A stretch of DNA of 64,000 bases from the NCBI GenBank assembly GCA_963082975.1, contig OY720344.1, positions 82,758,053 through 82,822,052 on the forward strand. The letters run 5' to 3'. Made by a program: the position numbers and the translations under genes. The notes beneath the pieces are model-generated. The model had not been told where the DNA came from, searched no databases, and saw only the letters and a list, made by a program, of their open reading frames with translations. The number at the start of each line of letters is the position of its first letter. The stretch's first letter is position 1. Below, one piece after another: positions 567 through 64,000 of the stretch. The stretch comes from Labia minor (lineage: Eukaryota; Arthropoda; Insecta; Dermaptera; Spongiphoridae).

Positions 567-3389
567 TAACAATAAACTTGATTAGCTTACACATGAACTC
601 TAAAAAAAGAAAAACACATAAAATATTTCTATGAATCCTTCGATTCCGCTTTAGTTTGTTCCTGGAATTTTAAAATGTTCATCAGAAATATTATATATAT
701 ATAGGTATATTAAAAACAACACTAACTTTCATTCTTAAAAATCTTTAATTCATGCTCACAAGCCAATTTTTCATTAGTATCCTTTTGTCTCATGATTCTT
801 GGTTCTTTTCAATAGAAAGATTAAAATGAAAAAAAAAAACACCGAAAAAGTTCCGCTTTTGTTATCTAAATTTTCTCATTCAATTTTTATTTATTTAACA
901 ATTTTTTTATAGCTTATATTACTTGATATTCATGTTTAAAATCATCTCGAATCTCGAAAAAAACTTGATAATAACATTCAAGATGATGAATAAAATGAAC
1001 CCCTCCACCTCATTCTAAGCACTTCTCATTGTTTCCAATAGCTAATATCGAACAATTATTTTTATATGAAATTTGTAAATTATAAAATATTATAGATTAT
1101 ATAAACTCAGCAGTATAGATATTTCTTGTTACTCTTATAAACGATAATAAATAAATAAAAATTATAATTATCTTAAAGACAATAAATCATTTAATAAATA
1201 TATTGATCTAGATTATTTTCTCTTCACAAGTTTTTATTGATCTTCGGGAACTATGACCATCTAGCCAATCTTAGTTTTTTTTCTTATTTAAGGAAGTAAA
1301 TTTTTATTTTTAAATATTTTAGTGAACATGTTGAATACTCGACTACAAAATCCGCACTAAGCACTATGATGGAAGTTGGTTTGGAATTAAAATATATTAA
1401 AAAGCCAAAAAATATGGAAAAAGAAGAATAACAAATAATGTGCATAATTTTACATAATTATTTAACTTAAAATTTAATTAATATAGTTTAAAAGTTTTGG
1501 AATTATATATATATACTCGTTTCTTTAACAGAAATTAAATGAATTTATAATCATTTGCAGAAACATACCAAGGAGACAAAAGGGAGAAGGACAAGCATTG
1601 GTCGTTCAGTATATAATAATTTAAAGCAGACATTGCGATTGAGATTAAAATTTTAATAAATTATTTTAAAAATTTTATTAAATTATTTTTATTTCTACTC
1701 CCTGAGAGGCAAGTTTATTTGTATAATCAATTTTTAAAAATTCTATTAATTAGATTCATTTCAATATTTTTTATTGAAATTTCATTTTAGGTTTTTCTAA
1801 TAGTAGTATATTAATAATGGCATATAAATAAATTATCCATTTACATATAAAATTATTTTATTAATTTTAATAATAATAGATAATAGAATTGAAAAAATAG
1901 AAAATAGAAAAATACTACATACTTATGATATTTATCAAAACATATTAACCAATATATTCAAGTGCATTTGAATTTATTATTTTAAAAAGATGCATTTGTA
2001 TACTTTCTAAAATCTCGATGCGTAAAAAATGGAATCAAATAAATAAAAGAAATGTATAGTTTAAAAATGAATAAATTTCTTTATTTTTTTATTTTAATTT
2101 TAATGAAATTTAATTAAAAAAATCTTATTACAACACTCGAAATGTAAAATAAAAATAATATTCAAAAATAATTCGTTAAATTTTATTTAAAAACAACTAG
2201 TAAGTATTGTGAATAAGTAATTATTATATAATAAATAAAGTAATAATTAATTAATACTTACTATGACTGTGGAGGATGGGTGATCAAGTGTACCGGATTT
2301 GTAGGCAGCGAGTTGCTATTGAACGAGTCGACTTGGCAGCAAGTGAAATATGTTGAGCGGGTAGCGGATACAAGGGGCTACCAGTAGGCGGGTATTAGAA
2401 ATTCATAATCGACATCTTTTGATATATAAATATAATTATTGCATAATGTAATTCATTTTAAGTTAAAAAAATATCGAATCCTAAATTAAACATGAAATTT
2501 AAATTATATTATATATTTTATTAAATTATATTTATATTTTATTATAATAAATACATAATAATATATGTAATACGAAAAATAACGATAGAAATTTCAAATT
2601 TATTTAGTAAATATAATAATTAAGAAATTTAATTTTTTATATAGTGTAAGTATTATTATTGTAGTTGAAACAAATTTATTTTCAACTAAAAATTAATTTT
2701 TTCTTGAGATGAAGAGAAAAGTTGTAATAAAGAAAGAATCTGAAAGAAAATTAAGCGTCATTGGAGAAATCTGATGATTTTATCTCGAAATGGGAAAGTA
2801 AAAATCTCGTATTGTGGCATGTAAAATCTGGACCATGAGGACAAAATGAAATCAGAAGATGGGAGCCAGTGAAAGGAGAAAGGATAAAAAAACGTCATGG
2901 CCAGAGATATATCCAGGGTGTCGAGTGCAGAAACGTAATTGCAAATCCCCCCTCCTCGATAAGAATAAGTCCGTTGCTGTTTCAGCTGAAATCTTCAAAT
3001 CAGGATCGAAAGAAAAGAAAATGACCCACCACTTATTGTATAGCTCTTGGATGCCTTTTCAAAGTTGACCACTATTGTTTTTTTTTCTTATCAGTCAAAG
3101 AGCAGAAGCAGCGCGGAAGCCGCGTTTTTCCACTTTAGCCAGACGTATTGATTAAAGTTTTTAAATCACGACCTTTACAGAAAGAAAACAAACAACAATT
3201 CTCAAGAAAATCCAAATCCTTTCCTATTGAGATAAAATAAAAATACTTGTTTTTATTTCAAAATAAAAGATTAATATTCAAATATTTTATTATTTATTTA
3301 ATATATAAAAATTAACAAGATTTTTTTTATTAAATAAAAAAATTAAACTTAACTTTTTAAAATATCAATCTAATCTCTTTTTTAAAAAT
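567..3389. other. AT-rich intergenic DNA with two less AT-rich patches
   Basis: Mostly low-complexity A+T sequence without a recognisable gene. Two patches stand out by higher G+C: 2265-2400, and 2850-3170. The second contains an open frame of 69 codons at 2859-3068 (+) with no recognisable domain and no splice context that I can defend. They could be regulatory DNA or worn transposon pieces. Confidence 0.5.
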
Positions 3390-3950
3390 CTGGAATGTTT
3401 CCACTCGACTATTTGGATTAATTAACATATATTATATTTAAATTAAATTACTTAATTATAAATTATAAATTAAAATTAATAAATAATATTTATTAAACCA
3501 GCGCGTGTTTGGCTCTTTGTTGAAGGCACCACATCACGTGCTGGTGCATGATTTGACATGGTAACAAATTAATTCCGGTACTTCCAGCGATTCAATCAAT
3601 CTGAAATTTTATATATAGCAGTTTTATACAATTTTTAATCATGTGAAAAACTATCAAACATATATCTCTATTTTTACTGAGGAAAAAAAATGAAAACGTA
3701 AGTAATGACCGACTTCCGGATGAACTACATTTCTCAAAAGTTGATAGCAAACTACAAATTTTGAATATACTAAATTTCATTATTCAAGCTTAAACAGTTT
3801 TTGGGTAATCTTGTTTACACACACACACACAGAAAGAGAGAAAGAGAGATTTTTCTCAATCTTAGTGAAAATGACTCAGGGACATTCAAAACGTATAAAA
3901 ACATCAAAATCTCGACATCGAAAATTTTCGTGATCACAATACTAACTCAA
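3390..3950 (+). repeat. Repeat family A copy (A2)
   Basis: Near full-length copy starting CTGGAATGTTTCCACTCGAC. It lacks part of the left sub-terminal repeat, and its 3' hairpin is lost (the copy ends at about CACAATACTAACTC). The microsatellite is CA followed by a short GAGA run. Confidence 0.75.
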
Positions 3951-4191
3951 ATATTAAAAAGTATATTTTTTATCTTTTCGTGGAAAAAGCATTTTTGATT
4001 TGTAATTTATTTATTTCACATAAAAATGTATTTAAATTTGTATTTAAATTTAATTTTAAATTTAATAGATTATTTAATTAAATTAAAATATATTTTACGT
4101 ATATAAAAATTTAAGAGCGTTCAGCCAGCACTCTTGGGATTGTTAGTTATTTTTTCATTCAGTGTCACCCAGGACATCCATTCAAACTGAT

Positions 4192-4228
4192 TTTTACCGA
4201 CCGACGATAGTAAGGGAGGTATTGTTTA
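4192..4228 (+). repeat. Repeat family B, 5' end fragment (B1)
   Basis: Only the first ~36 bases of family B are present, with the 5' sub-terminal repeat ACCGACCGACGATAGTAAGG. The match then stops in AT-rich DNA. Solitary 5' ends such as this suggest truncation after insertion. Confidence 0.7.
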
Positions 4229-7990: not shown

Positions 7991-8030
7991 GCCATGGTTC
8001 AAAGCATCGCAAAATCATCTTAACTTTTTT

Positions 8031-8655
8031 ACCGACCGACGATAGTAAGGGAGGTATTGTTTTCACATCAAATTTCACATGTGGAGATTTTTACATATCT
8101 CCACGAATCAAGCATTTTCTTAACAGAAAAAAGTATTTTTAGCATGATGTCTGTCCGTCCGTCCTTCCGTATAGATGTGTACAGCTTGAACGGCTCAACG
8201 GATTTTGATGAAATTTGGTATATTTACTTAATGCATCAGTATGATGAATTGATCAACTTTTGGTGCAAATCCGCAAACCGGAAGTGGTAGTATTAGCGAT
8301 CGACGATAGGAAGGGAAGGGTTGTTTTCACACCAAATTTCACATGAGGAGATTTTTTTACATATCACCCCGAATCATGCACTGTGTATTGGTTTTATCCT
8401 CGAGAAAAATCATCTTTATTAGTTTTTTCTTGATTTAAAATTATATGACGTCATCCAGACATTCATGAGGTCACAGCCTGGTCTTACATATATATTATAA
8501 ATAAAATAAAATTAAACATATTATGTTATATCCATATCTGTTTTTTATTACATTAATAGGTATATTAAAATTATTTGAAATAATTTCTGTAGCTGGAAAT
8601 TAATTTACTTCAAACCGTCGGTCGGTTCGGACCTGGCCACAGGTCAACTTATTTT
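8031..8655 (+). repeat. Repeat family B, full-length copy (B2)
   Basis: The 5' sub-terminal repeat ACCGACCGACG is at 8031. The centre has the GTCY-type microsatellite GTCTGTCCGTCCGTCC near 8150, then GATTTTGATGAAATTTGGTA and AACCGGAAGTGGTAG. The inverted partner CGTCGGTCGGT is at 8617-8627, and the 3' hairpin GACCTG-GCCA-CAGGTC is at 8630-8645. The internal frame of 77 codons at 8057-8290 is incidental. The layout matches DINE-1/helentron-associated elements. Confidence 0.8.
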
Positions 8656-9552
8656 ATGTTTCATTCATGTATAAGATTGTTTATATACTTCAACATTATA
8701 AAATATTAAAATGCCTCATAATATTTATAATCTTTTCCGTAAACATCTGGGAGTGATCTCTTTGAAGGTTAGCAAAGTTTTATATCCGACACCAAAATAA
8801 ATATCATAGAATCCTTCTCTCAATGAATATGTTTAAAGCTGTTAAATTTTAATTAAATATTTTTACTAAAATGAATTTTATAAGAAAATTATTTTAAAAT
8901 CAATTTAAAATAACTCAAAATAAAAAAATCAACTTTTTTTTTAATTTTTAGGAAATTAAAGTTTAAAATAAAAATGAATTATTTTTACTAAGAATTTATT
9001 TATTAAAATAAATATAATATTGAGAAATTGAATATAATTTGATTTTATGTTTTTTTAAATAAATAATTTATATATAATAATAATGCAATTGATTTTATTA
9101 ATTTTGAATCTAATTAACATGAATAAATGTATAGTTCCAGTCACAGAATTATTATCAAATTTTAAACATTAGTATTAATATAACAATATATATATGTAGT
9201 TTAACCACTTTTTTATTTACTTTTACTTATTTAAAAAACCTTGGAGGTAGAGAATTTTCCATAGGGGCCATAGAATTTCGAAAAATATGACACATAAATT
9301 ATAATAATTAAATAAGGTCATCGTTAACATTATTAAATGCATGTATTGACTAGTAAAAGTTTGCATATATAAATTTAAAATTAAAAATTTAAGCAATCTA
9401 AACGAAAAAAATAGGGGAGGGGGTGACATATTGATTTGCGTTTCAAGGATGCCGTGACTTCAAAAAATTTGAGAAACTCATGATTAAAGGACAGTCACCC
9501 ATCACCTTGAAAATAATAAAATCATATTAGAGAGAACTTCCGTATCATAGGT
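8656..9552. other. AT-rich intergenic DNA
   Basis: Low-complexity A+T sequence; no gene, RNA or repeat family recognised. Confidence 0.5.
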
Positions 9553-10588: not shown

Positions 10589-10698
10589 TAAAAGATAGAG
10601 GCATTGAAAATTTTGGTTGGGGAGGCATTCTAGCATAAAGATTGGAAAACCTGCCATTGGTAAATAGAATTTTCAGCTTAGCCTTAATTAATATAAAA

Positions 10699-11192
10699 AT
10701 AAGTTGACCTATGGCCAGGTCTGAACCCATCGAATTTTATTTTATTTATAATATATATGTAAGACTAGGCTGTGACGTCATATAATTTTAAATTAAGAAA
10801 AAACTAATAAAGATGATTTTTCTCGAAGATTAAACCAATACAAAGTGAATGATCGTGATAATATGTAAAAAATCTCCTCATGTGAAATTTGGTGTGAAAA
10901 TAACCCTTTCCTTCCTATCGTCGATCGCTAATACTACCACTTCCGGTTTCCGGATTTGCACCAAAAGTTGATCAATTCATCCTACTGATGCATTAAGTAA
11001 ATATACAAAATTTCATCAAAATCCGTTGAGCCGTTCAAGCTGTACACTTCCATACGGACGGACGGACGGACAGACATGCTAAAAATACTTTTTTTTGTTA
11101 AGAAAATGCTTGATTCGTGGAGATATGTAAAAATCTCCACATGTGAAATTTGGTGTGAAAACAATACCTCCCTTACTATCGTCGGTCGGTAA
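10699..11192 (-). repeat. Repeat family B copy (B3)
   Basis: Reverse-oriented copy. The 3' hairpin is at 10705-10720 (GACCTA-TGGC-CAGGTC as read on the plus strand), and the GGAC-repeat microsatellite is at ~11057-11077. The 5' sub-terminal repeat ends at 11192. Part of the region next to the 3' sub-terminal repeat is deleted. Lies ~100 bp from A3. Confidence 0.8.
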
Positions 11193-15480: not shown

Positions 15481-18400
15481 ATGAATATGCAAAGTGTTAT
15501 CCTTATGGGGAGAAGGGTTCCCATCACCTCTTTTCAAAAATTTTCGACAACGGAGATCAGACATGGATTGGTTCCGGTATGGCCCTCCTCTACCCATCCG
15601 AATAATGGATCGATTCCAACTGCGAAGGGATTACCTTTTATCGGCACCTTTTTCGATATCCTCAAGTCGGGAATGCATCCTCATTTCCATGAATATATTC
15701 ACAAACGTCATCAGGAACTTGGGTTCATCTTTCGTGAACACTTAGGTCCTGTGGAAACGATATTTTTGAGTGACCCGGAAATGCAGCTCCAGGTTTACTC
15801 CTGTGAAGGACAATATCCACTACATACGATGCCGGCCTCTTGGGAACTTTACAACCAAATTCACAACTGCCCCAAAGGATTGTTTTTCATGTGCGTACTT
15901 AAATAAAAATATTTATTGATTTATTTACTGAATTTAAAAAAATTTAAAAATACATTTATTTCAATTTCTCATAATAAGAAAATTTGCATCCCTATATTTT
16001 AATCCAAAAAAAATATAAGATATTTTTCTTTTTTTCTAATAAGTCAGCCAAGTCTTGAATTATATAAATAAAGTTTCAATTAATTCAATTAAAAAATAAA
16101 TGATGGCTAAATTATAAAATTAAAAAAAAAATTATTATAAGATTTTTAATATGAATATTATATTGTTTTTTTTTTGTCTTTTTTTGTTGTTTCAATTAAT
16201 TAGGGAAGGAGAAGAGTGGTTCACATATCGACAAATTTTGAATAGTGTATTACTTGATGTTTCGGATGAATATATAGAAAATGTAATGGCAAAACCTTCA
16301 CGAGATATTGCTAAAAAATTTATAAATGATTGGAAAAATAAAACTGAAATCACGAATCTATCTTCACTATCTTATAGATGGTCTGTTGAATGTAAGTATA
16401 TTGAATATTTAAAATCACAAAGGAAATTGGTTATGTAAATTATAATTATTTTCATTTATTATACAATATTATATTTAACAAATTTCTATTTTTAGGTGTA
16501 ATCGCAGGATTAATTGGAACAGGTAAAAAAAATGAATTTGCTCTATTAGAAGATGATATTTCTGAAATGGGAGAACTTGTTCACGAAGTATTTGAACAAA
16601 CAGCCCATTTGCAATTTCTTCCTATCGAATGGAGTCGAACTTTAAAATTCTCCCCTTGGCAAAAATTTGAAAAATCATTTACACAAGCATTAACATTAGG
16701 TAAAAAATAAGAATTTCATTTAAAAAAATAATTTAGAAATTTTCATAATAAAAAATAGTTTAAATTTAAAACTTCAATTTTTTTTTTCTATTTCCTTCTA
16801 TTTGAGCTAGAATTTATAATTTTTACATTTATTTTCTTAATTTATAATATTTCAATTTGATGAGATTTGATCTCAACTCATAATTAGAAATGTCCATTTC
16901 TATTGAGAAAATACTTGCGATCTAATTTAATATGCTTTACATTCTAGCAAAATCAATAGCTCGAAAAATCCCACAACTTGCACAAGATCACGATGGAATC
17001 ATTTCAAAATTATCCAAAGAAAATGTTTCAGCCGAATTTATTGATCGAGTTGTCACTGATCTTATTTTAGGAGCTGGAGATATGGTAATTAATTATATAT
17101 ATAAAAATGTTTAAATTATAAAGTATTAAATAAATAACAAAACTAAAGTTATATAGTAATTTAATTAAATAAATTTATCTTAATATGTTAAAATATTGAA
17201 TAATCTTCTTGTTGTTTCAGACGTCTACATCCATTCAATGGATGCTTTATAGATTATGTCGTCATCAAGATGTGCAAGAAAATTTAAGGGATATATTATT
17301 GAATCTTGATTCATCTAAAAAGGATTATGCCAATCCAGAGTTAAAAGCATTTGTTCGTGAAACATTTCGACTACACCCAGTAGCACCTTTTGTTACAAGA
17401 TATCTTAATCATACACTAGACTATTACCAATATAGTATACCAAAAGGGGTAAATAAAATACAATTATTTAATTCTTTCATTCAGAGTTTCTCTTCTTTAA
17501 GTAAAATAATTCACTTAATCAAATCATTTAATTATATAATATTTTTTTAGCCTCACCCAATAATTCCTTTACAAATTAATTCATTCTAATTTTACTTTTA
17601 AAACAATTTAAAAGTAAATAATAACTGTAAATATATCTACCTTGAGCTATTTATTGCCAGTCATACTGCTATATCTTTTCTATATTTTATATTTACTAGT
17701 TTTTTAGAGCGCCGAAGGCTCTGCCCCTGTATCCCCGATGTAATACATAATAATTTTTTGAAAGTCTGTATGCGAAAGATTTTAATTCAATGGGTATATT
17801 TTTTTCTCTCATTTGGATCTTTGTTTTCACTGAAATTTGCAAATTGCACAATTTTTCAAAATATAAATTTAAAGATAAAAATTATTACTTACTTTGTTTT
17901 AGAAAATATTAATTAATTAGGAGTAATATTCAATTTAATATCAACAAATACCTTATAGTGAATATAAAAATAATTACTATAATCTTTAAATAAATTTTTG
18001 TCCTTGCTTTTGAAAATAAAATAAAAATATAAGAAACTAAAAGGATCTTTAAACAAATAAATTATGTTTAGAAATATGTATGTCTAAAAAATATTAAAAA
18101 TCATTTTTTTTTTATTCAAATTGAGTAATGATTGCAATTCCTATAGTTTCATTTTAATTATTATATTTCAGACAAAATTATTTAAAAAAGGTAATCAAAC
18201 AAAATTCTCTTTTTTTTAGAGTCTGGTAAACCTATCCATTTATAGTGGTTGTCGAAATCCAAGATATTTTTCTGACCCAGATCTATTTAAGATTGAAAGA
18301 TGGTTAGGAAAGAGTAAAAAACGAGGGCATTTCGACCTGCGGGACATTACTCCATTTGCTATGGGTGCAAGATCTTGTATCGGGAGTAAATTTGCTCAAG

Positions 18401-49019: not shown

Positions 49020-49383
49020 CAGTGGCGGCTCCAGGGGGAGGGGCCATTGCCCCCCCCCCCCCCGAGAGCTCAGAATTCTTTTTTTTTTCTTACTAAAGTG
49101 CATCTTTGAATATTATAAACTATTTATGACCTTATATTGGAAAAACCATTTCATACAAGAATTTAAAAAAGAGAACGTCTTTATTTCTATATAATTTTTA
49201 CTTATACATAATTCTACATAATTTTACTTTTACGTATATACACATAATTCAAATTTACTTTATATCTTTAACTTTAAGATACATTTGCAATGGAGTTATT
49301 AGGGAAGATTATGTTTGTTTTATTGTTGCCCATTAAAGCCATGCCCCCCCCCCCCCCGAGTGCTCAGAATTTTTTTCTTTTTA
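49020..49383. mobile_element. hAT-type MITE, left part, partly duplicated
   Basis: Begins CAGTGGCGGCTCCAGGGGGA with a poly-C tract and GAGAGCTCAGAATTC. From 49337 a second copy starts without the terminal bases (GCCATGCCCC, GAGTGCTCAGAATT); it continues at 50229-50307 after the C element. The right terminus was not found. Confidence 0.65.
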
Positions 49384-50033
49384 CTTTCCCGCATACTTCG
49401 TATAAGGGAAGTATTGGAATCGTCAAAAATTTCGACTTCGAGATTTTGATAGATCTTGACGTTTTAGACCTCCCTGAGTCGGAAAATACCATTTTTCGAA
49501 TTATGTCTGTGTGTGTGTATGTATGTATGTATGTATGTATGTAATGTCTGTAAGCAAATTTACTCAAAAACTAATCAAGCTAGGACTTCGAAATTTGATA
49601 CACCGATATTATTCACAGTTTGTAGATTTCTATCAAAATTTCGTCAAAATCGGTTAACCGGAATTGGTACTTTACCTACACTGGATGCGTTTACCTTTCA
49701 AGTAACTTAATACATCAGTAGGATAAATTGCTCAACTTTTGGTGCAAATCCGTAAACCGGAAGTGGTAGTATTAGCGATCGACGATAGGAAGAGAAGGGT
49801 TATTTTCACACCAAATTTCACATGTGGAGATTTTTTACATATCACCACGAATCATGCACTTTGTATTGGTTTTAACATCTTATTTTTTTCTTAATTTAAA
49901 ATTATATGACGTCATCCATCACTTCACGTCACAGCCAGCTCATATATTATAAATAAAATAAAATTAAAAATTTTTATATTATATCCATATCTGTTTTTTT
50001 ACATTTAAAATATCAGTTAACCGGAAGTAGCAC

Positions 50034-50081
<48 letters not shown>

Positions 50082-50228
50082 GTTACCAAATATCAAATTT
50101 GACACCAATAAACTAACACGAACTGGCTCTTTATCAATACCAAGTTTACACATTCTAAATATTCATTCACAACTCTTTATACCTATTTATATGCGGGAAA
50201 GTCTAGGGGAGGACACTCCCGATATTTT
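49384..50228 (+). repeat. Repeat family C element (helentron-like layout), host of a B fragment
   Basis: The sub-terminal inverted pair CTTTCCCGCATA (49384-49395) and TATGCGGGAAAG (50190-50201) is exact. Just outside the right copy lies the hairpin GGGAG-GACA-CTCCC (50207-50220) and the tail GATATTTTAC. Inside are CGAGATTTTGATAGATCTTG, a GT/GTAT microsatellite (49507-49541) and TCGAAATTTGATACACCGAT. A family B piece sits at 49690-49990 and (TA)n at 50038-50078. It splits a hAT MITE copy whose two sides rejoin (TTACTAAAGTGCATCTTTG). Confidence 0.7.
49690..49990 (+). repeat. Repeat family B fragment (B4) inside the C element
   Basis: Starts mid-element (ACTTAATACATCAGTAGG, then ACCGGAAGTGGTAGTATTAG) and runs through TATGACGTCATCCA to about ACATTTAAAAT. 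The 5' half and the 3' hairpin are missing. Confidence 0.7.
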
Positions 50229-50307
50229 ACTTACTAAAGTGCATCTTTGAATATTATAAACTATTTATGACTTTATATTGGAAAAACCATTTCATACAAG
50301 AATTTAA
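50229..50307. repeat. hAT MITE continuation
   Basis: Nearly identical to 49092-49167 (AAAGTGCATCTTTGAATATT and onward); it is the right side of the MITE copy split by the C element. It ends where a family B copy begins. Confidence 0.7.
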
Positions 50308-51431
50308 ATAAGTTGACCTGTAGCCAGGCACAGAACCGACCGACGCACAGTGGTCTGAAACGCCCAAATAGCTGGCCAAAAATGAAGATGTTGGTGAAAC
50401 AGCTTGAAATTTTGTAGGCAATAGTTTTGAGAGTCAGGAAATTTAAATTTGACAAAAAAAAAAATGGCGAATTCAAAATGGCGGACAGATTTTTAGAAAA
50501 GTGACGTCAGATTCGCAATTGTATGTTCTCTGGGATTTTTTGAGCCGAAAATTTCGAAATTGAAGTTAGATTGTACGAAAAAAATGATAATTTTCAAATG
50601 ATGTGTTGATTTTTCAAAAAATGACGTCATGCAGAGAAAAAGGAGAACAACTATATTATGCATCTAAAATAGGCGACGGAATTCGAGAAAAGGTGAGCTG
50701 TTACATTGATTTTACTTCAAATATCTTTCCTTCTTTTGAAAAGTGACAGGTGCACCTTAACGAGATATTAATCGCGCTAACCTGCAGGTACCTGTGGGTC
50801 CCATAGGCCTTAGTCTGTTGACGTTCGCGCGCTCGGAAAAAAATTCATAGGAACAAATGGGGCAAAAAGGAGCAATTTTTTCTTCATGATTCTTTATCTA
50901 TAGACCTTTATCTTTATGATTCAAATGAGATTGTCACCAATGGTCACCAATGTAAAAAATGCGGAATGTTTTTTGGAAAGTTTTTCGTCAGGTTACATTT
51001 TCTGACACAAGCGGTTTAAATCAGCCAATATCAATATAATACATGCATTTCTAGCAAACAAAATAAAAAAGTCCATGTACGTACCTCCAGCAACAGTTTC
51101 CATGTCGCAAGTTGCAAATTAAACTTTTCTATGAAACGAAACACCAATTTTGACTGATCTCGAATTTCAGACGTTTTGGGAAATCTCGGGAGAAAGTAAA
51201 AACAGCTGACTTTGAGATGTTCGGAAAACTCGTAGAGTCATGGTAGTGCTCTACATTTTCAGCTTTTCGTACATAAATATGTCTTCAACAAAATACCATA
51301 AACGACATGCAAAAAAAAAATTTTTCAATTTTCGATTTTTGGCCAGCTTTTTTGGCGTTTCATACCACTGTGCGACGGTTTTAAATAAATTAATTTCCAG
51401 CTACAGAAACAATTTCAAATAATTTTAATAT
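50308..51431 (-). repeat. Repeat family B copy (B5) split by a Transib-like element
   Basis: 50308-50345 gives the hairpin end (AAGTTGACCTGTAGCCAGGC) and the sub-terminal repeat ACCGACCGACG. After the insertion, GGTTTTAAATAAATTAATTT and CCAGCTACAG continue the family B sequence seen in reverse at 8560-8620. The copy stops near 51431. Confidence 0.75.
50346..51372. mobile_element. Transib-like DNA transposon, non-autonomous, 1027 bp
   Basis: Terminal inverted repeats of ~38 bp: CACAGTGGTCTGAAACGCC at the left and CACAGTGGTATGAAACGCC read inward at the right, both followed by AGCTGGCCAAAAAT; about three differences. The 5-bp target duplication CGACG is at 50341-50345 and 51373-51377, and the pre-insertion site can be seen in B2. 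CACAGTG equals the V(D)J recombination-signal heptamer. Transib elements are known for CAC-starting ends and GC-rich 5-bp duplications. The interior has no long frame and includes GTGACGTCAG and ATGACGTCATG motifs. Confidence 0.85.
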
Positions 51432-51800
51432 TAGTTTAGGGAAAAAGTAATCCATTATTTTTGGGTGAAATTTATTAGTTTAATTAACATAGTTTGGATT
51501 GTCCGATTTAGGTCAAAGAAGTACCGTTTTGTTCAACTATTTCAAAGTTCAAAACTATAAAAATCGATTTTCGCAATCTTGTCTTGATCCTAATATTTTT
51601 TTGCTATGGAAATTTTGTAATGAAAGAAAAAGATGGTAGTGGCTTGGTGCCATGTCCGGACTGTAAGGTGGATTGTCTAACAAAACGGTACATATTTGAC
51701 CAAAATCGGACAATTCAAAGCATGGCAAATAAAGTCTTGAATTTCGCCAAAAAATATGGATTTTTTTCAATAACCTATTATATAACATATATCATGTAGC
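51432..51800 (-). pseudogene. mariner remnant
   Basis: The minus-strand frame reads NPPYSPDMAPSHYHLF and SLQNFHSKKILGSRQD. This is the third-catalytic-residue region of mariner transposases, but the usual PSDYH aspartate is His here. AGGGAAAAAGTAATCCATTA at 51438 resembles a mariner end. The TGTCCGATTT-GGTCAAA motif occurs in opposite orientations at ~51499 and ~51725, so the fragment is rearranged. Dead. Confidence 0.7.
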
Positions 51801-63190: not shown

Positions 63191-63660
63191 AATTATAAGA
63201 TTTGTATGTATTTAACAAAAGTAAAATATATTATATTTTTATCTATTTATTAATATTCAAAAAATTAAATTTACAAAGCACGTGGAATAGATAAGATAAA
63301 AAAAATATCAAAAAAAAAGAAGATATTGTTAATTAGAAGCTCGAAGGACTTGATTTCGGGATAAAAAATGATTGAAAGGGTTTCTGTGTAAAGAAGAAGG
63401 TGGGGAATTATGGGCATGGACTTTTGAATAAGATATGAATGTTTTTAAAAAATTATCATTTTTGATTTAATAATGAACTTGTCTAATTGACATTTACTAT
63501 GAACATTATAATGTCAATGTCAATGTCAAAACAAATCATTGAGGTAATAGTATCCTCTATAAATGCAATTAACATATATATAAATATATAATATATAACA
63601 TTTCGTTTGTGTTCTTGTTTTTATTTTCAATATTTAAATGTAAATTTTTATGCAATTTTT
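63191..63660. other. AT-rich DNA upstream of CYP4
   Basis: No gene recognised; a short TGTCAA tandem (AATGTCAATGTCAATGTCAA) at 63512-63531. Confidence 0.5.
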
Positions 63661-64000
63661 ACCGACCGACGATAGTAAGGGTGGTATTGTTTTCACACCA
63701 AATTTCACATGTGGAGATTTTTACATATCTCCACGAATCATGCATTTTCTTAACAGAAAAAAGTATCTTTAGCATGATGTCTGTCCGTCCGTAAAGATGT
63801 GTACAGCTTGAACGGCTCAATCAATATGATGAATTGATCAACTTTTGGTGCAAAACCGGAAACTGAAAGTGGTAGTATTAGCGATCGACGATAGGAAGGG
63901 AAGGGTTATTTTCACACCAAATTTCACATGAGGAGATTTTTTACATATCACCATGAATCATTCACTTTGTATTGGTTTTATCCTCGAGAAAAATCATCTT
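63661..64000 (+). repeat. Repeat family B copy (B6), cut by window end
   Basis: From ACCGACCGACGATAGTAAGG to the window end. A ~42-bp deletion removes the GATTTTGATGAAATTTGGTA core between GAACGGCTCAA and TCAATATGATGAATTG. Confidence 0.75.

Follow-up and report, generated by a model that had tools for sequence, protein, structure and literature searches.

The stretch of DNA analysed here (the window) is 64 kb long. It holds a non-autonomous element inserted in a copy of a repeat, here called B, and an uninterrupted copy of the same repeat lies elsewhere in the window. The features at the two places are as follows (window coordinates, strand, description).

50346-51372, plus strand: non-autonomous Transib element, 1027 bp, read as an internal-deletion derivative of a presumed autonomous copy of 3646 bp
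50341-50345, no strand: left copy of the 5-bp target site duplication (TSD), CGACG, paired with the right copy by the empty-site alignment
51373-51377, no strand: right copy of the 5-bp TSD, CGACG, paired with the left copy by the same alignment
50346-50383, plus strand: left terminal inverted repeat, 38 bp, matching the right one at 35 of 38 positions
51335-51372, minus strand: right terminal inverted repeat, 38 bp
50346-50352, plus strand: left heptamer CACAGTG, an exact RSS heptamer
51366-51372, minus strand: right heptamer CACAGTG
50376-50384, plus strand: left nonamer-like CCAAAAATG, 23-bp spacer, 6/9 to ACAAAAACC
51334-51342, minus strand: right nonamer-like CCAAAAATC, 23-bp spacer, 7/9 to ACAAAAACC
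50774-50837, no strand: 64 bp extra in the window derivative and missing from the 3646-bp copy (L074), in the gap between element positions 428 and 493
50308-50345, minus strand: terminal 38 bp of the interrupted B (HINE-like) repeat, with the hairpin and the 3′ subterminal inverted repeat
51378-51431, minus strand: truncated remainder of the interrupted B repeat, to the right of the insertion
8029-8660, plus strand: uninterrupted B (HINE-like) repeat, ends approximate, with the unfilled target CCGTCGG at 8615-8621

Both inverted ends of the element begin with CACAGTGG, and the inverted repeat ends at position 38. When the flanks were rejoined over a single CGACG, the product matched the reverse complement of about 8562-8682 with the junction unbroken, which shows a true empty site and a TSD of exactly 5 bp; to the right of the insertion, 51373-51431 was 93.2% identical to 8620-8562 over 59 bp. 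An earlier note on this DNA had claimed 38-bp inverted ends, a flanking CGACG duplication and an unfilled site in a relative from family B, and all three claims were confirmed at these positions. The end pattern CACAGTGGTNTGAAACG, with at most 3 mismatches, gave two matches in the window, which were the two ends of the element itself (0.16 expected), and at least two matches were obtained in 1 of 100 shuffles of the window. The heptamer CCGWCGG occurs once in the 64 kb, at 8615-8621 in the uninterrupted B repeat. Scans of the window with Rfam and for tRNA genes returned no matches.

Repeat B is about 630 bp long. Ten of 12 empty copies were 83-96% identical to one another over about 640 bp, and the other two (L081 and L085) matched these ten over only about 160-180 bp. 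The motif ACCGACCGACG was seen 2-3 nt from the 5′ end in 9 of the 12 empty loci, CGTCGGTCGGT stands 26 nt from the 3′ end, and the hairpin GACCTGGCCACAGGTC lies between CGTCGGTCGGT and the end. HINE/DINE-1 elements are described as carrying a subterminal inverted repeat near the 5′ end with a partner set back from the 3′ end, a hairpin near the 3′ end and T-rich insertion sites (PMC4067079). Subterminal inverted repeats, a 3′ hairpin and a T-rich target were all found in B, with the 3′ repeat at 26 nt from the end as against about 38-60 bp in the families described from mites (PMC4067079). B thus looks like a Helentron-like (HINE) repeat, a label resting on this architecture. The exact 17-mer of the intact B target was found 9150 + 9136 = 18,286 times genome-wide, with no match of the reversed control; judged by its sequence, the "family B" target of the earlier note is an abundant Helentron-like element. 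Since the insertion splits the 3′ subterminal repeat, the HINE copy that was entered has probably been disabled. Besides the interrupted copy, whole or partial copies of B were located in the 64 kb at 8029-8660, 10696-11192, 49705-50005, 63656-64000 and 4191-4227.

Three further features of the window were recorded. At and beyond the truncated end of B, 51428-51533 and 51679-51781 form the arms of an inverted repeat of about 105 bp (79% identity), which may be a separate small foldback element. An 88-bp direct repeat (49084-49171 and 50225-50312, 96.6%) reaches the edge of the interrupted B with its right copy, and a cytochrome P450 fragment, presumably an exon of a host gene, lies at 15481-15906 (Pfam p450, E = 1.4e-7).

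An exact RSS heptamer at both ends had been claimed for the element, and CACAGTG was indeed present at 50346-50352 and 51366-51372. All 41 B-site copies compared had this heptamer at both ends without a mismatch, a figure that holds partly by construction because copies were paired and collected with end patterns containing CACAGTG; two other copies had a damaged end. The consensus of the RSS nonamer is ACAAAAACC, and the slot of a 23-RSS nonamer (positions 31-39) is occupied by CCAAAAATG at the left end, kept in 39 of the 41 B-site copies, and by CCAAAAATC at the right end, kept in all 41. Among the 9-mers of the window, 2.2% score as well against ACAAAAACC as the left nonamer (6/9) and 0.3% as well as the right one (7/9). 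With a 12-bp spacing the ends score 4/9 and 6/9, versus 6/9 and 7/9 at 23 bp, and such scores are not unique to 23 bp, the right end reaching 6/9 at 10, 11 and 12 and the left end 6/9 at 11. Each end thus fits a 23-RSS layout with a weak to modest nonamer match, and the two ends of the element showed no asymmetry of the kind seen in a 12/23 pair, with a 12-bp spacer at one end and a 23-bp spacer at the other. The claim that no nonamer-like A-run stood at a fixed 12/23 spacing was therefore wrong in part, since CCAAAAATG and CCAAAAATC stand at 23 bp. Transib ends with symmetric spacers of 20-22 bp, and a few with 12/23, have been described (PMC8355894).

The genome (604 Mb in 71 contigs) was searched with the end pattern CACAGTGGTNTGAAACGCC at up to 2 mismatches, which gave 125 + 122 matches against 0 + 0 for the reversed control. 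One pair of ends delimited a long copy of 3646 bp (L074:420-4065), inserted at the same B site as the window element and sharing both ends with it at 97-100% identity. On its minus strand the long copy carries an open frame of 612 aa (554 aa counted from the first ATG), and its best PDB match was 6pqn, "Putative DNA-mediated transposase" (E = 8.9e-107, residues 102-575, 474 residues), from the entry set 6pqn-6pr5 of the HzTransib transposase. The frame matched RAG1 (PDB 3jbw) with E = 2.1e-4 and Pfam RAG1 with 25.9 bits at a cut-off of 25. In the alignment with 6pqn, WGCDG was paired with WGFDG, TMIDGK with TMIDGK and QEARNK with SEARNK; in that with RAG1, WGCDG was paired with SCDG within the significant stretch, and a counterpart of QEARNK appeared only in a second, non-significant stretch. 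The acids in WGCDG, TMIDGK and QEARNK are presumably the catalytic DDE, and in these alignments the three acids occupy the expected DDE positions of the putative partner transposase.

A protein search of the genome with this transposase gave 29 matches, all of which were scored. Two were full open frames (L087, which is the copy of L074, and L088, with an element 99.42% identical to the first over 3647 bp), one copy was in two pieces with a stop, one match spanned only residues 319-612, and the remaining ones were C-terminal pieces, at least some of them inside deletion derivatives. One or more 5′ exons of the gene would lie upstream of the 612-aa frame; the open stretch of 161 aa found there contains no ATG, so the 3.65-kb copies are presumed to be autonomous. 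The window element carries no transposase gene, and its ends are those of the long copy. The prediction of the earlier note that an autonomous Transib should exist in this genome is thus answered by two 3.65-kb copies with an HzTransib-like frame of 612 aa, to the extent that their autonomy is presumed; the proposed search for the same ends around a RAG1-core-like DDE frame had led to L074. For a RAG2-like gene, the 4.5-kb locus holding the long element contained a single ATG frame of at least 80 aa, and Pfam RAG2 matched neither the 161-aa upstream frame nor any of the 10 frames scanned out of the other 14 of at least 60 aa, a scan in which short exons could be missed. An RAGL element with RAG2 was rejected on these two results from the frames scanned. 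Among viral contigs, 18 pattern matches to the transposase were obtained and none was confirmed as a relative, and the end pattern was found in 13 stretches with one match each, which is estimated to be about chance for 16 specified bases.

In alignment with the long copy, the window element is an internally deleted derivative, its positions 1-295 corresponding to 1-293 of the long copy (97.0%), 295-428 to 2977-3110 (100%) and 493-1027 to 3111-3646 (98.9%). A class of 1.24 kb (4 copies) consists of long-copy 1-665 and 3068-3646, a copy of 1.43 kb of 1-858 and 3079-3646, and forms of 0.87 kb and 1.66 kb were also found. Internal deletion is the usual pattern among cut-and-paste transposons. The 33 copies of the 1.03-kb class had a median pairwise identity of 99.41% and diverged from the majority letters by 0.63% on average (maximum 10.3%), and by this similarity the copies of the family are young and the family has been recently active.

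The insertion sites of 65 two-ended and 12 one-ended copies were read. Thirty copies were those most similar to the window copy when 40 of 134 candidates had been scored, and the others were drawn from the first 100 exact 19-base ends in the list; the sample is accordingly biased toward young copies with intact ends, and old copies are under-represented. Insertion was near site-specific: 61 of the 65 two-ended copies, nearly all, had entered the 3′ subterminal inverted repeat of B at a single phosphodiester position, that is, at the same nucleotide of the repeat, in both orientations. This total comprises 41 of 44 two-ended copies assembled from loci L014-L074, 19 of 20 taken in contig order from the list of ends, whatever their likeness to the window copy, and the second long copy (L088). 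Among the one-ended insertions, 11 of 12 were at the B site, the exception being L174 (TACCG). On the host strand, the TSD of the 41 B-site copies was CGACG in 21 and CGTCG in 20. Altogether the TSD was exactly 5 bp in 63 of the 65 two-ended copies (61 CGWCG, 1 CGGCG and 1 CGACC), so that further copies with duplications of the CGNCG type, which the earlier note had proposed to look for, were found; the remaining two had one end damaged.

Four two-ended copies stood elsewhere. The copy at C1:84514018 has an intact 5-bp TSD, CGGCG, in flanks without similarity to B; that at C1:1348463 has a damaged left end; and that at C9:51407107 (CGCTG) also has one end damaged. The fourth (C2:28310906-28311693, flanks L140 and L141), a 788-bp derivative, has the TSD CGACC; once joined, its flanks gave a match to the 5′ end of B (score 21.5 against a best of 17 in 500 shuffles), which probably places the insertion in the 5′ subterminal repeat of a B copy, a mirror image of the usual target. 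At the copy on C9 (51407107-51408132, L035), one end has lost GTG and gained TCAGCG right before the TSD CGCTG; the resulting CAGCG/CGCTG at 51408132 is a perfect palindrome and resembles a P-nucleotide scar, as from hairpin opening in an aborted excision, in this single case.

The identification of the family as Transib, which had been suggested for the window element, is supported by the homology of the partner transposase (6pqn, E = 8.9e-107) with its acids at the DDE positions, by GC-rich TSDs of 5 bp and by CACAGTG ends, which are of the CAC or RSS-heptamer-like type. The ends also contain CAGTGGT, which resembles hAT termini, and on this ground the element could be read as a MITE of the hAT type that ends in CAGTGG and makes an 8-bp duplication. 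That reading is negligibly probable and was rejected: 63 of 65 two-ended copies have a 5-bp duplication, the CA outside CAGTGG belongs to the insertion and is missing from the empty site, and the partner transposase is that of a Transib. No 8-bp duplication was present in the window copy when its end was taken as CAGTGG, and neither an 8-bp TSD (0/65) nor a link to a hAT or P transposase, the outcomes that the earlier note had named as contrary, was seen.

The published Transib elements offer several points of comparison. The site that Transib prefers is reported as CGNCG (PMC4735498). Hztransib of Helicoverpa zea, 3518 bp with the TSD GCTCG (PMC1852546), is like the present family in a transposase alignable over 474 residues, in a size of 3.5-3.6 kb, in its inverted ends and in its GC-rich 5-bp TSD; what distinguishes the present family is its many deletion derivatives and its single dominant insertion site. 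In Drosophila, hopper and transib2 make a 5-bp TSD within the palindromic CCANTGG (PMC3276498); here too the TSD lies in a palindromic 7-bp motif, CCGWCGG, whereas the core is CGWCG instead of CANTG and a single position of one repeat family has received 61 of 65 insertions. With RAG1/RAG2 and RAGL transposons (PMC7204232) the family shares a CAC heptamer, a 5-bp TSD and a RAG1-core-like transposase, and it differs from RAGL elements in showing no sign of a RAG2-like gene in the frames scanned and in a transposase far closer to HzTransib than to RAG1. GC-rich 5-bp sites such as CGCCG are reported as RAG targets (PMC11844651).

The concentration of 61 of 65 copies at a single site in B might have arisen if one or two insertions in B had been followed by multiplication of the composite by the HINE rolling-circle machinery, and HINE-type repeats are indeed described as moved by autonomous partners (PMC4067079). 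In the 33 copies of the 1.03-kb class, however, the adjoining B flanks (38 + 60 bp) were 95.9% identical against 99.4% for the element copies, the flank was less similar than the element in 484 of 528 pairs, and the distance matrices of element and flank were uncorrelated (Mantel r = -0.077, p = 0.64). Orientations relative to B were mixed and unclustered (24:17 overall), copies of five deletion sizes, as well as the two long ones, occupied the B site, and one copy outside B was flanked by an intact 5-bp duplication of its own (CGGCG). The left flanks were homologous only up to about 38 bp from the insertion, and beyond this point only three loci matched each other. These three (C2:28029967, C6:49187883 and C6:1547400) share unique flanks that are 97-100% identical over 255 bp, as joint multiplication would have it; they are therefore segmental copies or lie within a larger repeat, and may represent one insertion. 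Copying of filled B templates into empty B copies by gene conversion, without repeated transposition, could draw on the great abundance of B (18,286 exact sites), but it would carry the adjoining flank along, whereas the histories of element and flank were uncorrelated within 38 + 60 bp of the insertion, and the two orientations were both represented among copies of the 1.03-kb class (20:13), among the 1240-bp copies (1:1) and between the two long ones. Because identities of element and flank differ and are uncorrelated, the insertions are independent. Identity, Mantel, orientation and left-flank data together exclude composite multiplication as the main process and make gene conversion unlikely; on the comparison of element with flank both were rejected, the first being left very improbable and the second equally so.

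The core of the target is the palindrome C/CGWCG/G (slashes mark the limits of the TSD). CCGWCGG was counted 25,458 times genome-wide versus 3,761 expected from the dinucleotides of the window, an expectation that the true background may exceed, since the reversed heptamer was counted 10,760 times. In a sample of 100 CCGWCGG sites, which were the first in contig order and thus neighbours on one contig (0.26-2.75 Mb), 78 lay in B, 67 of them as exact 17-mers and 11 as B variants among the 33 others, every one of which was read. Against this supply of about 78%, all 61 insertions at CCGWCGG were in B (0.78^61 = 2.6e-7; 1e-4 at an upper supply estimate of 86%), and the supply of the heptamer alone is thus an incomplete mechanism, although a short preference of the ordinary kind together with this supply accounts for most of the concentration. 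A preference for CGNCG as the sole cause was rejected, since the B site would make up only some 6% of CGNCG sites by extrapolation from the 34 that the window contains (p about 1e-68 for 61 of 65). Unfilled B ends, collected without regard to the heptamer, retained it in 7 of 10 cases against 61 of 61 filled ones (p = 0.002, small sample).

The absence of CCGWCGG insertions outside B (0/61) suggests either extra specificity or selection. In the former case, the transposase would have evolved sequence-specific integration and would read more than the 7-bp core, in a stretch peculiar to the 3′ subterminal repeat of HINE. This proposal, which we consider possible although doubtful, draws on the same 0 of 61 where about 22% was expected (2.6e-7), or about 0.02 if only the plainly repeated non-B sites of the sample (5/22) are counted. 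Against it, the exact 17-mer was present in 57 of 61 filled and 67 of 78 empty sites, so that the four filled sites deviating outside the heptamer were not significantly fewer than the empty ones (p = 0.18); with no significant excess of conservation beyond the heptamer in filled sites, longer recognition gains no direct support. Insertions also exist at CGGCG, CGCTG and CGACC sites, and several of the non-B CCGWCGG sites are GC-rich and perhaps genic by eye, so that selection may have purged insertions there.

From these data, the window element is very probably a non-autonomous Transib, of the RAG1-related DDE, cut-and-paste type, moved in trans by the transposase of the surviving 3.65-kb copies, and its distribution would reflect a taste for C/CGWCG/G together with the supply of that motif by HINE. 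The partner transposase would mobilise the non-autonomous copies in trans and would prefer the palindromic heptamer, a counterpart of CCANTGG in Drosophila hopper and transib2, with strand transfer staggered by 5 bp at C/CGWCG/G. An ordinary preference may thus behave as site-specific integration because it is mainly HINE that supplies the heptamer in an AT-rich genome. Contacts beyond the heptamer, or selection against other sites, might sharpen the targeting further, although this step is the weaker one. By analogy with the established biochemistry of HzTransib and RAG, excision would proceed through nick and hairpin and leave hairpinned flanks.

Pokey is a DNA transposon that targets 28S rDNA, and the present family is like Pokey and Dada in being a DNA transposon concentrated at a single position of a multicopy sequence. 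Dada elements are DNA transposons specific to snRNA and tRNA genes with a TSD of 6-7 bp (PMC3706591). The present family differs from both in superfamily and TSD, in having another transposable element as its target, and in that its specificity may follow from a short motif. Strict target specificity is rare in DNA transposons, and Dada has been called the first such superfamily (PMC3706591). One insertion of a Drosophila Transib family within an INE-1 copy is mentioned (PMC10299278). Among the papers listed by literature searches on Transib target specificity and insertion preference, none with a Transib confined to a single-site target was found, and the concentration on a single site inside another transposable element sets the present family apart from the Transibs in those papers.

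RAG1 derives from the Transib lineage, and RAG shuffles antibody genes. A young family with two intact frames, CACAGTG ends and a near-exclusive target may therefore give access to target choice of the RAG type, and it poses the question whether a short palindromic preference and an abundant repeat are enough for site-specific behaviour that spares genes. There is some chance, which we rate as low, that a transposase of the Transib/RAG lineage with two 23-RSS-like ends has instead evolved true single-site specificity, with the Helentron subterminal repeat as a safe haven. If so, the family would provide a natural relative of RAG1 that integrates at one defined sequence.
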